Origin: Mesaphorura yosii
Lineage: Eukaryota > Arthropoda > Collembola > Poduromorpha > Tullbergiidae
Assembly (NCBI GenBank): GCA_009869945.1
Contig: WIXG01000147.1
Span: forward strand, 112,261 to 176,260
Direction: 5' to 3'
Length of the DNA: 64,000 nucleotides
Part shown: piece after piece, positions 47,693-62,921 of the stretch
Layout of the letters: the number at the start of each line of letters is the position of its first letter
How positions within the stretch are numbered: position 1 is the stretch's first letter
Made by a program: the position numbers and the translations under genes
The notes under the pieces: generated by a model
What the model saw: the letters and a program-made list of their open reading frames with translations, nothing else
The model's database searches: none
Told to the model about the DNA's origin: nothing

Positions 47693-48689
47693 ATGGCGCT
47701 GAAAACACACCTTGACGACTTGTGGGACCTGAAAATTCGTGCTGACGGAAGACTCCCAAATGAGCTTCGACATATTCAGTGCAAAATGGGCATCTTTCAT
47801 CCACAGGCTTCAGGAAGTGCTTCGTTCAACATTGGCAACACCAAAGTGGTTGCTGCTGTTTATGGACCGCATGAGGTGAGTTAATGACATCATGACCTCT
47901 GCTGTACCACTGACTCGAACTTAATTACATTTGACATCGTGTTACAGACTCGCTCAGCGCAAAGAAAGACTGCAAACCCTGACAAAATGGCCATTAATTG
48001 TGAGTACAGCTCCGCATGCTTTGCGTCGAATGAAAGGAAGACATCCACGAAGAATGACCGAAAGTCGATGGAGATTTCAGCCAACCTGCAGAATGTGGTC
48101 GAAAACTTAATTGTACAAGACATTTTCCCTGGTTCACAAATTGATGTTTATGTAGAACTGGTACAAGATGACGGTGGAAGCTACGCAGCGTGTAAGTTGC
48201 CTCCAAACAATTTTAGCATTCAGATTCAATCCGTTACTTAATTCCATTTTTCATTGATTCATTCATTTACCATTAATGTCTAGGTATAAACGCCACAACT
48301 TTAGCCCTGGTAGACGCCGGGATTCCAATCCGCGATTTTGTTACAGGTATGTCAATTTGCTAATTAATTTTCGGAGCCACGCGACAAGGTATTAATTTTA
48401 CAACAAATTCACAGCTTGTACTGCAACTCTGGCCCATTCCACTCTGATGATTGACATCAACTCCTTCGAAAGGGGATACGGCGGAGGGTGTCCTGAGATA
48501 ACTGTTGGTATTCTTGCATCTGACTCCAAGCTGCTGGTCCTGGAACAGTCCAACGTACTTCAGTTACATTACCTAAATGACGTAATTCAAGTTGCCGTTG
48601 ACGGCTGTAAAAGGATCCATTCCATTCTGGAAGCAACCGTACGGCAGAAGTTTAACCGATTGGAGCAATCGTTAAACCCGGTCGTATAG
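47693..48689 (+). CDS. EXOSC4: Exosome complex subunit RRP41 (EXOSC4)
   Basis: Four exons, 47693-47875, 47948-48191, 48284-48346 and 48415-48689, join in frame to 254 residues. This is an RNase PH-fold ring subunit of the RNA exosome that degrades and processes RNA in nucleus and cytoplasm. Signatures are IRADGRLPNELRHIQCKMG at the N terminus, GNTKVVAAVYGPHE, SSACFASNERK, SQIDVYVELVQDDGG, and CINATTLALVDAGIPIRDFV. The ring of six RNase PH subunits is catalytically dead in animals. The second half is somewhat divergent from vertebrates, which is common in invertebrates. AATAAA lies at 48724-48729, convergent with the potassium channel. Confidence 0.95.
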
Positions 48690-49071: not shown

Positions 49072-50506
49072 CTACACTATTGCCTTTCTCCGGCTCACCA
49101 CTCCTGGCCCCGGTATGTGTTCATGGTCCTCCGTGCAGTGGCCACACTCATTCCGTACGTAGTGGAACATGTAGTGAACGTCGGCCTTCAATTCTTTGAT
49201 CTTGGCCAGCACTTCCTCCTTCAACAGGTTGTAGCACATGGCCACGAGGCCCAAGCCCAGCAGCAAGTAGATGAAGTTGATGATCAGCTTCGTCTGGTTG
49301 GACTCGAGTTCTTCCTGGATGTTTGTACCGGGTACAAAATCCCCGAGCCCGATCTTGCACAGACTGATTACGCAGAAGTAGACCGAGTCCAAGTACTCCC
49401 AGCCCTCCCACTCGGCGAACATAATTGTGCCGATTATTATGTAGACGATGAGCACGTACACAGAGGCCGTGCTGGGCACGACTACGACGGAAGAGTCCTT
49501 CGACGTGGTGGCGGATCCCGGTCCAGAATGCTTGGTCGTCGAGGGAGTGGCCAAGTACTCGTCACCGAGCGCATTCTTGGCTGCGCTTCGTCCTTCAAAC
49601 CAGAATACACTTTCACCTCAAAATCTCATATGCACACGCTAACAGTTGGTACTTTGGCACTTACGAAGTTGACAGGAACTTAATTTGATGTAAATCCATT
49701 TAAATGCCTTGGACAGTGCTCGACCCATGTTCAGAAAGTAAAGGACATAAAGTGGAATACCAAAAACGGCATAAAACATGGTGATGACTTTGCCCCATTC
49801 CGTTCGAGGCACAAGATTCCCGTACCCAATCATTGTGAAAATGGACAGCGTGAACATGAGGGATGATGGAAACGTCCACTTCTCTTCCACCAGGCGACCG
49901 TCATAGCCCTTCTTGAATGCAGCAACAATTTGAGCCTAAACGGAGACGACAGACAGATGGATTCAGATTTTGAACTGTTGAGTCAAAAGGCTCCACACTG
50001 ACCTGAAAGGACCTGAGCGTCATATTGGCCGCTTCTTGCCAGTCATCCTCATTAAACTGCAGATTCATATAATGCTGGAGCAGGTTTTGGGCAGTGGCAT
50101 TCCGTAGCCTGGAAATGGCCATGACTTGCTCATTCCCCTGTGGATTTCCAGTGGTCTCCAATGCGATGAACATGAACGCGCCCAGCAGAGCGTAGCACAC
50201 GATGATGCCGCCAACTCCGACTTGAGTGCACATAAACGTGGTAATGGAACGACAGCACGTCTTGAACTGAAGGTTACGGGCTGAGGTAGCTCCCGTGCCC
50301 TGACCATCTTCCGGAATTCCGGGGTAGGGCGAGGTGGAGGGACCGTGTTCAACGTTGTGCCACGAGTGGCCACGCTGATAGGCAGGATGCAGGCGACTGA
50401 TGTGGTTGCTTGGCAGTGCTGCACCGCCGTGCTGAAAAGCGGGAGTCGGTCGATTACGGACCGAGTAAGAACGAATTGGGCCGCGATCCCGGCGTATGGA
50501 AGACAT
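49072..50506 (-). CDS. Two-pore-domain potassium channel (K2P, TWIK/TWK-like) with atypical filters
   Basis: Three minus-strand exons, 50003-50506, 49665-49935 and 49072-49616, join in frame to 439 residues. The order is a cytoplasmic N terminus of about 100 residues, M1 (VGGIIVCYALLGAFMFIALE), an extracellular cap with N-glycosylation sites (NATA, NMT), P1, M2 (GKVITMFYAVFGIPLYVLYF), a loop, M3 (VYVLIVYIIIGTIMF), P2, and M4 (IINFIYLLLGLGLVAMCYNLL). The tail is short, ending RRKAIV. K2P channels carry background potassium current. Here the filter in P1 reads M-I-G-Y-G-N (203-208) and in P2 K-I-G-L-G-D (346-351). Family filters normally read T-I/V-G-Y/F/L-G, so both threonines are replaced. 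All flanking family features are intact, so the gene does not look like a pseudogene. Confidence 0.92.
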
Positions 50507-52630: not shown

Positions 52631-54310
52631 TTATACCGCAATCTCTTCCAACGTATGATACCGATCATTATCAAATGAAAGCATCGCCATGCTGGGCTCG
52701 ACGCTCCTGTCCGGCGTACTACGCCCATTGAAAATGAACGCTGATGGTGTACTCGATTTATGGCCCGTGACGAGCCAGCAAAGTCCAGCCAGCACGAGAA
52801 CGGGTCCAATGACAATCGCCATCACCCCAAGTGCTGTCACTATTTTCTGGAGAACTTCCCCAGGCAGGAATTCAAGTTCATGCCATCCGCCCTGATCCCA
52901 TCCACCTGCGCTGATGCTGCCTCCGACCCATCCTGCAATTTCATGAGGAATGGAGTCGAAAAATGTGTTCGGCGACTGCTGCTGCGGGAGCCAGGAATTC
53001 CAACCAGTTTGGATGGGATGCTGTTGAAATGGTGCTGGAACTGAAACTGCAGGCGGTGGTCCATGAAAATGTTGACCTTGTTGATGTTCCTCGGAGGAGT
53101 GCTCATCCTTGTTCTTTTTCTTCTTCTTGCCTTTCTTCTTACCCTTTTTGATTTTCTTCTTAATCTTCTTGATCAGTTTCAAGATGCGGCCGTGGGGTGC
53201 GCCAAGAGTGTCGTAATCAGTGTCAATGTCTTCCTTGGTATAAATTAGAGGCGCTCCCAGTGTTTCTGCCGGTTGTGGACGCTGGAGCAGCTCAAGTCCC
53301 GATGATTTTGTGGCTTCACCTTGGCACAAGTGATTCCTCTTTCGTAGCAACACGGCTGTTACACTATCAGGAACAAATTCTGTTGCGTTCGCAAGTGACG
53401 GAGTGATTCCCTGCCCGCTACCGCTGTCGTTTCGATTCTGATATGGTGGAACTTGAAAGAAATGCAGCTCCACTAGGTAATAGTAAGGATCATCATCGTC
53501 ATAAATTGGAAGTGCATGACCTCTTAAATTTCTCTGCGCCCGCATCTGCTTCTGGACTTTCCTCACAATTTGGTACACTGACGCCCGGGTACTCTCAGAC
53601 AAGAACGATGTCGAGTCGAGGTCTCTGTGCCTGTTCTTCCATCGTGCAGGATTTGACAAGTACAGAGTACCTTGAATCCACTCCTGTCGAACGAGTCCCA
53701 ATTTCCGACTCAAGGTGCTCCGACTCCAGAATTTTAGCAAAAGAGGCACGAGTTTCTTTGAGTAGCCGAATGTGGCAGCGGAACACTCTCCACTTGGAGC
53801 GGGAGTGGTTTTCGCCGCTTCTTCTGCCCGCCTCACGCTGGCAGTATGTTGAAGAGTAATATTCTTCACGAAGAGATGAATGGGTTGGTTTTCTGCAAGT
53901 GGCAGTCCCTGCAGCATCGTGGAATTTGGCGAAACCAAAGTGGGAGGGTGGTAAATGCTCAGTTCCGGGGGCTCCGTCCTTATAACTAAGGACCGAGACG
54001 TAGCTGCTGGCGTTGGTAGGCCAATTAACCCATTTCCGGCTTTGACGAATAAGAGAATGGCCGACGCCAATAACTAGAAAATGATTCATGCCTGTTAGAC
54101 ACGCAGGTGATAAAATGAAGGGATTGATTACCATGTTTCGTTGGCACGCGGGCCGTCCGCTAGCCTGAGCTGGCCAAGTTGGGTCCGTGCTGCTATCCGA
54201 ACACTCGTCTTGGGACTGGCGGTGACCCGATTGATCCCACCTACATTTATAACATTTTCCTGACTCACAAGTGAAGTGGCATTCAATTCGTTACGAGATG
54301 AGGTCAGCAT
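52631..54310 (-). CDS. Unknown single-pass membrane protein with a long extracellular region and a Lys tract
   Basis: Two minus-strand exons, 54269-54310 and 52631-54073, join in frame to 494 residues. The strong GTGAGT donor after ATG plus 14 codons was preferred because it alone connects in frame to the second exon and yields a signal-like core (SLLLASAILLF). The ectodomain carries NxS/T sites (NST, NIT, NDS, NAT) and a Tyr/Asp-rich DDDDPYYY. It then has a Lys-rich stretch (about 25 residues, at plus 53100-53185) followed by a Pro/Gln/His-rich segment. A hydrophobic helix near the C terminus (VTALGVMAIVIGPVLVLAGL) is followed by a short Ser/Thr-rich cytoplasmic tail ending TLEEIAV. I recognise no domain. 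The gene could be lineage-specific. A longer first-exon frame (54128-54334) ends in a stop if read through. Confidence 0.6.
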
Positions 54311-59529: not shown

Positions 59530-61222
59530 GTTGCGCGATTTTGTATAACATTTTTGAAGTTGATTCTTTCTCGCAACTGCACCAGATAGAGTCAATTGAA
59601 TTTTTTTAACAATTGTTTTTCGTAGCTCTAAGCTGTAAGCATAAATAAATGGATATTAGTATTTATTTAAAAGGACCTTACCGGTTAAGACCCGATTTCT
59701 GGCCAACCTCTCGCGATTGACGAGTCATATATCAATCGAAAGCTTATAGCCTAAGGACTTAAGAAAAAAATATTTCACATTAAAATTCGAAGGCCTGCGC
59801 CCACAGTGGCCGATCGCATTTTGACCAAGTTCGACCTTTTGACTCTAAATAGCTCGAAAATGAAGAGTCATGTTAAAAAAGTTATTGAAGTAGACAAACA
59901 TCTTTCTTGGTGTAGATTCTGAGAAAAAAATCAAATCGCCGTTCTCACCTATTGTAACCCATTTCACGAGGGATTTTTTGAATTTATGCACTGTTTTTTG
60001 GTCCCACACATTTTTCGTGGAACTGTTGAGCAACATGGGATTCATTTCCATAATCTGCCATCAATGACCAAAATCCGACCACAAATAGCTGAGATATGGC
60101 CAGTCCACGTTTTAGGCCCAAACCCTGTAGGATCTTTGAGCCTCCTTTTAACAGTCTTCCATTTTTCATTGGTTCAGCCCCATTCATTCGGGTGTGGGTT
60201 TGGGACATGAACGTGTTTTGGATTGTAGAGTCTGTGAACGGGCGAATGAAAAATGTCCAGGTTTTTCGACCATGTCATCCCGAATATCTGCTTGGCTCAA
60301 GATAAGCTTGGCCACCTTCTCCGAATAGCGAATACCGGTAAGCTCCTTTACATGAACGAAGAGTCTACCTTCATTCCGATTGTGATTCCATGAACAGAGG
60401 GCATTTTTAGCAATAATGTCAAGCAAGACAGAAAAATAATGACCCGTGTGTGTCGTCAATGATCATATTGCCATTGCGTTGCGGCTAAATTGGAGAATCC
60501 ACTTAGCGACATGACGCCGTAATTGCATTATAATTGTGCTCAAGGTCCTTCAACCTATTGAGAGAATCATTGAAATGATTTCACTCCTAAGCAACCTTCA
60601 CCTATTGTGTTCATGTTTCACGAGTCCGAACGGTGAAGTCGTAAAGTTCAATTTCCTGAGATTCTCGAGCACGATAATCGACGACGCAGGTTTCATTTGG
60701 GGTTTACCACGTCCCACGCCTACTTTAGATAATTGAATCACGAAATTGGAAAACCTAACATTTGAAAGCAAGTATTCTTCAACAGGGACAAAGACAATTC
60801 AGCTATTTCGTTCGTGGAAATGGCAATGTGTGTCACATGAAACCAATTCCAATTAGACGACCACAGACAGAGCAATAATATTTATCAAGGGTGTGTGCGC
60901 TTGTCTTTTCCGCTCAGATCCCCATGTTAATTAGATCCTATAGATATCACACGTGCCGCAATCCTGTCTGATAGCAGGCAGCAAGCAGCGCTAGACAAGG
61001 TCCGCAGGAAAAGCCAACCGGAGAAAGCCCATGGGAAAATATTTACTGTACTTTTCCGTGCTTAATTGGATGAATCTTTCCGTGTCAACAAGTTTCACAG
61101 GCGTCTCGCCATAAGTTCTACGTCGGACAAAGTAATGCTCGTGTTCCATACTTGTGAGGACAAGCTTCAGTATCACGTTCAAGTGAATCCTTCTAAGTCC
61201 CATCCTCGTTGAAGGTGAAGGC
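59530..61222. other. Intergenic stretch between EIF3C and the gustatory receptor; possibly repeat-derived
   Basis: About 1.7 kb. Minus frames at 60184-60459 and 60991-61203 are open but carry no domain I know. The block 59690-60480 mixes short direct and inverted words and could be an old mobile element; this is not established. The right end contains the receptor promoter. Confidence 0.3.
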
Positions 61223-61229: not shown

Positions 61230-61299
61230 TGGGCTTTCACCATAATACGTAGTTTAGTGTCAATAAAATATTTCACTGTGCTGAAAGGTGAGGTGCAAG

Positions 61300-62921
61300 A
61301 TGAGGAAATTCTACTTCAACGAAATCGTTCCAATTTACCCCAAGACAAAGGTAATTTCAGTGACTAGTCAGGAGCCTCAGCATCCAAACGACCGTCATAA
61401 CCAGGAGAAGTCGGTCGAGAGTTTGTATCCCAGTCGCCACGCGTCCGCAAAGGATGAGGCACTGGAATACCTCAGCGTCTTCTTCAACTTTGGCTACTTC
61501 TTCCACTACTTGCCGTACCGTTTTAAAAGATCCCCAGGCACGGGCGCGTACACAATCCACACGAGCCTGGCACACAAGATCGTATGCGCCCTTGTTCACG
61601 TGCTGACGTTATTCCGTTTCATCACCGTCCTCCGTGAAGTGCAGGTGACTCACGCGGATCCAACCTCCTACTTTGTCATCGCACGGAACTTCGCTACCTG
61701 CATTTACATGTTTACGTTCATGTTCTCCTTCTGGAAGAATCAACTCGTGTTTCAAGACATTTTCAAAGAAATCGGCAGTAAGAGCCAGCTCTTTAGAAGG
61801 GACCAACAAGTTTCTGCAAATGGCACCATTTTCAGCATTCGGACCATTGCCTACTTGCTCTGCATTCTGTACACATTAATTTCGTTAATGAATGTCGTTT
61901 TTGGGCACGGACTGCTGCGTATGTCCGAATGGAGCCTGCGTGGTCTGCTGGAGAAACATGCGACATACACGAGATTCATGTTTTTTATGGAAGGGAACGC
62001 AACGGGCTCTGACTTGGACTTGGACAGCGTGGGTGGTGAAGTACACGAAATCTCAATGGATTCGATCACAATTTATTTCCTGACAATTGTGCACCTCTGC
62101 ATTCATTTCTACTTCAAGCTGGGTGCTCATTACGCGGATTTGAGCATCTTAATTTGTGCGCTGACCCTCCAACATTTGACGCGGCGGTTTACGGCTTCCT
62201 TTCAGCATCACGGGCAGGATCAAATCTCCACCGTAAGTGAGCTGGTTCAGTCTCCAACTAATTTAATCCTGGGACTGGCCGTACTGGATCTAATGCCACT
62301 GTACCCTTTAGATTCTGGATCAATACAATGCTCTGAAGGCGGTTGCTCGGAAGATCAACATTGGAATCGGGGCGATCACGCTCTGCTGCATGCTTGAAGC
62401 GATGCCGTACTACGCAACACACATTGGTGACATTCTAAACATATCACAAGATTGGTTTGTCCGATTTCGGTACCTCTTCTTCATTGCCAACTTTTGCTCC
62501 ATCATTATTGTTTCGGCCGATATTTCGCACAAGGTTCGACTTTGTTTTACTATGATGACTTGGAGAGGTTTACAAATTGCTCATTTCCAAGTGACTAATT
62601 TATTCGTCTGCGTTTGTAGGTTGGCTTATTGCAGGAATGGCTAAATGAAGACTTCAATTACGTTTCGATTCCACAACAAAAACTTGTTGTGTTGACAAAC
62701 GAGCTAACGTACTCCAGAATTGGGCTTTCGGCTATGGGACTTTTCAACATCACTTACGGATTCATTGGATCGGTAATTATGTCATAACCACATCTTGCTG
62801 TTCGACCTGAGACTGATTTCTGAATGATAATTTGCAGCTCATCAGTATTGTCGTCATGTACGTGGTCATCATACTGCAGTTTAAAACCTCACTAGAAGCA
62901 TGTCAACCAATTCACCATTGA
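61300..62921 (+). CDS. Gustatory receptor (arthropod 7TM chemoreceptor family)
   Basis: Four exons, 61300-62232, 62312-62533, 62620-62772 and 62838-62921, join in frame (all introns phase 0) to 463 residues. Seven hydrophobic helices are spaced over residues of about 85-450. The last exon reads ISIVVMYVVIILQFK, a variant of the TYhhhhhQF signature of arthropod gustatory receptors, with M in place of T. A late phase-0 intron just before TM7 is typical of the family. These proteins have an intracellular N terminus and form ligand-gated cation channels in sensory neurons. The ligand cannot be inferred. The N terminus has a long soluble part (about 70 residues) before TM1. AATAAA is at 62991-62996. 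Confidence 0.85.

Follow-up and report, generated by a model that had tools for sequence, protein, structure and literature searches.

A gene on the minus strand of the window (the 64 kb stretch of DNA analysed) encodes a two-pore-domain potassium (K2P) channel subunit in which the threonine at the S4 site of the selectivity filter is replaced in both pore loops, by methionine (Met203) in the first loop (P1) and by lysine (Lys338) in the second (P2). The explanation that we propose for it, namely, that the animal genome codes here for a real K2P subunit, with the gene intact, and that this subunit pairs with another K2P subunit, is in our estimate about evenly balanced between being right and being wrong as a whole. 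The features on which it is built are collected in Table 1.

Table 1. Parts of the K2P gene and the replaced filter residues (positions in the window)
Feature	Position	Strand	Content	Basis
Exon 1	50003..50506	-	N-terminal cytoplasmic region, TM1, most of extracellular cap	Gene model, translation, hydropathy, sequons
Intron 1, 67 nt	49936..50002	-	GT-AG: donor GTCAGT, acceptor CGTTTAG	
Exon 2	49665..49935	-	Cap end, pore helix 1, filter 1 T-M-I-G-Y-G-N, TM2 with GIP motif	
Intron 2, 72 nt	49593..49664	-	GT-AG: donor GTAAGT, acceptor at 49593	
Exon 3	49072..49592	-	TM3, pore helix 2, filter 2 C-K-I-G-L-G-D, TM4, C-terminal tail of about 47 residues, stop included	
Met203, ATG codon	49831..49833	-	S4-site threonine position, filter 1	Gene model and alignment to KCNK3/9/13
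Lys338, AAG codon	49354..49356	-	S4-site threonine position, filter 2	Gene model and alignment to KCNK3/6/9/13

The three exons join into 431 codons without an internal stop. Introns were picked by eye on donor and acceptor quality, and many further GT-AG pairs keep the frame open. Among the combinations listed, alternatives for intron 1 affect only the end of the cap and those for intron 2 only the TM2-TM3 loop; for example, the alternative acceptors of intron 2 at 49617 and 49581 are in frame and change this loop by +8 and -4 residues, respectively. Both filters are identical in every splice combination listed. GC content by codon position within the frame is 0.52/0.42/0.65, which looks coding-like, and that of the window ranges from 0.40 to 0.48. 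The view of the earlier note that the channel is well preserved agrees with the open frame, the GT-AG sites and the coding-like third-position GC, by which the gene looks intact.

The only Pfam family detected in the protein is Ion_trans_2 (PF07885), with two matched stretches (E-value = 1.9e-31; 108.2 bits against a cut-off of 22.5). Among the best 60 of 137 matches to solved structures, the lowest E-values per gene belong to KCNK13 (1.1e-21), KCNK3 (4.7e-21) and KCNK9 (5.4e-21), followed by KCNK2 (4.9e-19), KCNK10 (5e-18) and KCNK6 (5.3e-18), and then, more weakly, by KCNK1 (2.2e-17), KCNK4 (2.3e-17) and TASK2 (4.9e-16). Since the distance to several vertebrate subfamilies is similar, no vertebrate orthologue is evident. 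The Pfam match and the matches to KCNK structures bear out the initial assignment of the product to K2P channels. Five hydropathy segments exceed the threshold (residues 87-120, 215-239, 291-323, 358-384 and 328-347), the last of which corresponds to the second pore loop, and the remaining four were placed as the K2P membrane helices. TM1 lies within residues 87-120, and the filters are located between helices, as expected. The region from TM1 to P1 spans about 70 residues, lacks cysteine and contains two glycosylation sequons (N136-A-T and N161-M-T), a third being present at N357. TM2 carries the motif GIP followed by L-Y-V. With regard to charge, TM2 (residues 215-243) has no acidic residue, and TM4 (356-384) has only E384, at its cytoplasmic end; the acids E324, D327 and D343 are found in or adjoining the P2 loop, and are assumed to lie on the outer side. 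An AlphaFold model of exon 3 alone, the coverage of which excludes the cap, had a mean pLDDT of 57.1 and a pTM of 0.30.

Both filters align without gaps to solved K2P channels. P1 reads T202 M203 I204 G205 Y206 G207 followed by N, and P2 reads C337 K338 I339 G340 L341 G342 followed by D. In alignments with solved structures, threonine stands opposite Met203 in nine of nine distinct P1 sequences (KCNK3, 9 and 13) and opposite Lys338 in all nine distinct P2 sequences (KCNK3, 6, 9 and 13); these counts cover the printed alignments of four genes, with several sequences being variants of one gene, and leave out KCNK1, 2, 4, 10 and TASK2, which were matched without printed alignments. The clearest P2 pair is that of KCNK6, SLSTIGLGDYVPG aligned over SLCKIGLGDFVPG of our protein, and in P1 TTIGYG of KCNK3/9 stands above TMIGYG. 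Compared with the canonical T-x-G-Y/F/L-G filter, therefore, the S4 threonine is missing from both loops (Met203 and Lys338) and the glycines are in place (I-G-Y-G and I-G-L-G). The replacement of both filter threonines, as proposed in the earlier note, is confirmed by these gapless alignments. Of the two filter positions given there, that of P1 (49825-49845) overlaps the right place, whereas that of P2 (49373-49390) misses it by some 30 bases and falls on codons of the pore helix.

Could the replaced codons be an artefact, or the gene a decaying one? Each of the two filter codons is one base away from the threonine codon ACG, and a sequencing error at these codons, or a pseudogene, could in principle produce what we see. 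An artefact would, however, take two independent errors on exactly the two equivalent codons, and both an artefact and a pseudogene are at odds with a frame that is open over 431 codons, available GT-AG sites and a coding-like third-position GC. We consider this explanation very improbable. A six-frame scan for filter-like motifs across the 64 kb retrieved three, two of which are the filters of the K2P gene. No exon with a normal filter that could stand in for either of them turned up. The third motif, HSGVGLGHE at 60188 (+), has surroundings unlike a pore loop and was judged to be due to chance. A-to-G editing back to threonine was likewise rejected: a single-base change of this kind yields Val, Glu or Arg.

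The window is eukaryotic and intron-bearing. The K2P gene has an RNase PH-family gene (plus strand) on one side and a PTH2-family gene (minus strand) on the other. The former (47693-48689; PF01138) is compact and multi-exon, convergent with the K2P gene, and ends about 380 bases from its end; we take it to be most like the exosome subunit Rrp41/EXOSC4. The window also contains CPSF73, eIF3c (in separate pieces), Rpb4 and hydantoinase-type genes. In addition, a 370-residue open frame with hydrophobic stretches at 61285-62397 (+), without a Pfam match at an E-value of 0.001, presumably resembles an insect-type gustatory receptor, and a 480-residue open frame at 52631-54073 (-), also without a Pfam match, contains the lysine-rich low-complexity stretch KKIKKKIKKGKKKGKKKKKNK. 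Neither Rfam families at the gathering threshold nor tRNAs (ARAGORN, bacterial setting) were detected in the window.

How common the pair of altered filters might be was considered from published text and from sequence searches. Some insect K2Ps may carry TMIGYG and SLCKIG in their two loops. Together with the atypical filters of worm K2Ps (see below), this keeps us from calling the filter pair unique; if insects do carry these motifs, the pair is common among them and the gene belongs to a subfamily that already exists, though perhaps one that has gone unnoticed. Exact-text searches of the running text of open-access papers, which do not extend to figures or supplements and miss broken motifs, retrieved no paper for KIGLGD or MIGYGN. 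The same kind of search, again of open-access running text only, retrieved none for TMIGYG, SLCKIG, CKIGIG, CKIGFG, KIGFGD or KIGIGD, and four papers for KIGLG, none with a title about ion channels. Protein pattern scans of viral contigs with exon 3 and exon 2 gave 27 and three stretches, respectively, none of which was confirmed by tblastn. Degenerate DNA patterns had zero matches for L-x-K-I-G-L/F-G-D-x-V-P-G in microbial genome contigs, for its shorter form in viral contigs, for T-M-I-G-Y-G-N-x-V-P in viral contigs and for the TM2 block in both collections; the matching threonine control pattern had a single match in viral contigs, and these microbial and viral zeros are uninformative on animals. 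A plasmid search with exon 2 retrieved six records, all bacterial and 34-40% identical, two of them with a potassium channel family annotation and four unannotated.

The weight given at the outset to the S4 threonine accords with published mutants, which affect both ion occupancy of the filter and gating (PMC4771873). According to that paper, the hydroxyl of this threonine is the sole side chain of the K2P filter that touches K+ (PMC4771873). The TREK-1 mutants T157C and T266C conduct and lose voltage gating, and similar results were obtained with S4 Thr-to-Cys mutants of TRAAK and TASK-1, -2 and -3 (PMC4771873). In simulations of TRAAK with both P1 threonines exchanged for cysteine, S1 and S4 no longer bound K+ and permeation fell, and exchange of one of them raised permeation (PMC4771873). 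The latter outcome is in keeping with a heteromer of one subunit with the threonine and one without it. Loss of the threonine alone is thus no proof of a dead channel, because the cysteine mutants at the S4 site conduct.

The main rival to a heteromer follows from the same mutants: a homodimer might conduct through its altered filter, with Lys338 swung down into the cavity, and either form a leak that has lost the ion-flux voltage gate or differ in selectivity (e.g. be permeable to Na+). We regard such a conducting homodimer as rather unlikely. It is in line with the retained filter glycines and following N/D, and with the Na+ permeability that small filter changes can bring about, as described for TREK-1 I267T and for TWIK-1 under some conditions (PMC5376757). 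Nevertheless, cysteine is a much milder substitution than a charged lysine in the loop that gives two of the four S4 ligands, and the membrane segments of TM2 and TM4 offer no acid to pair with Lys338. In a homodimer, the S4 ring would consist of two methionines and two lysines, the ammonium groups of which would be placed at the site of K+ entry from the cavity. As TM2 and TM4 have no acid within their membrane segments to offset the charge, the homodimer would most likely be near-silent, passing little or no K+.

Pairing with another K2P subunit, on the other hand, is the most likely way for our subunit to work; the outcome would be a working K+ channel, altered in its rectification or gating, for which Sandman plus Galene of Drosophila would be the model. 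Each of these two is reported to be silent alone, and together they produce a K+-selective, outwardly rectifying current (PMC5362267); TASK-5 is likewise described as silent alone and functional in heterodimers (PMC11364637). These precedents and the larger, charged change in our protein favour an obligate or preferred heteromer. Against a heteromer stand the acids E324, D327 and D343 of the P2 loop or its immediate flanks, and the conducting S4 mutants, in light of which the homodimer might conduct as well; what was tested at that site, though, was cysteine rather than methionine or lysine. On balance, the reading that we prefer is a subunit with a variant filter, a poor conductor by itself, that functions in a heteromer with another K2P subunit, with the scales standing level between it and everything else. 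An unlikely rival reading is that the subunit does not conduct and, in a regulatory or dominant-negative role, assembles with other K2P subunits and lowers their current or surface level. Precedents are TASK-5, in the presence of which surface expression of TASK-1 and TASK-3 falls, and subunits with a dead (EYG) filter, the effect of which is dominant-negative (PMC11364637), whereas in our protein the glycines of both filters are intact and the partner is hypothetical only.

A natural subunit without the S4 threonine in both loops, and with a charged lysine in one, amounts to a ready-made test of how much alteration the filter of a K+ channel tolerates, and of whether partner subunits rescue an altered filter. 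It matters because mutants of the S4 threonine differ in ion occupancy and lose voltage gating (PMC4771873). More tentatively, the gene may represent a naturally occurring class of K+ channel subunits that carry a filter lysine, possibly arthropod-wide and unremarked, in which the fixed positive charge at S4 would replace an ion and set the rectification or gating of an obligate heteromer.

Among solved channels, KCNK3, KCNK6, KCNK9 and KCNK13 share the two-pore frame and gapless filters with our protein (whole-protein best E-values from 1.1e-21 to 5.3e-18), and differ from it in having threonine at S4 in every printed alignment, where our protein has Met and Lys. The TREK-1 mutants T157C and T266C are changed at the same two structural positions; they are laboratory-made and carry cysteine, whereas the replacements described here are natural, to Met and Lys. 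Among worm channels, a filter cysteine of UNC-58 (C. elegans) reportedly gives Na+ permeability, according to a 2024 paper. That change is one to Cys, in contrast to Met plus Lys in our protein, a pair that is not known from worm K2Ps. Sandman (CG8713) and Galene (CG9194) are, like our protein, invertebrate K2P subunits, and were compared with it via primer ends and the TM2 motif only. Their N-termini in printed primers (MSSRR and MSGRRA, respectively, against MSSIRRDRG) are too short to count, and their C-termini, also from printed primers, are unlike that of our protein. The TM2 motif of Sandman is given as GMP in PMC6377628, as opposed to GIP here. Among the 66 channels compared in that source, valine at TM2.6 is listed for TALK1, TWK-14, TWK-18 and TWK-29 only (PMC6377628), and our protein also carries valine at this position.
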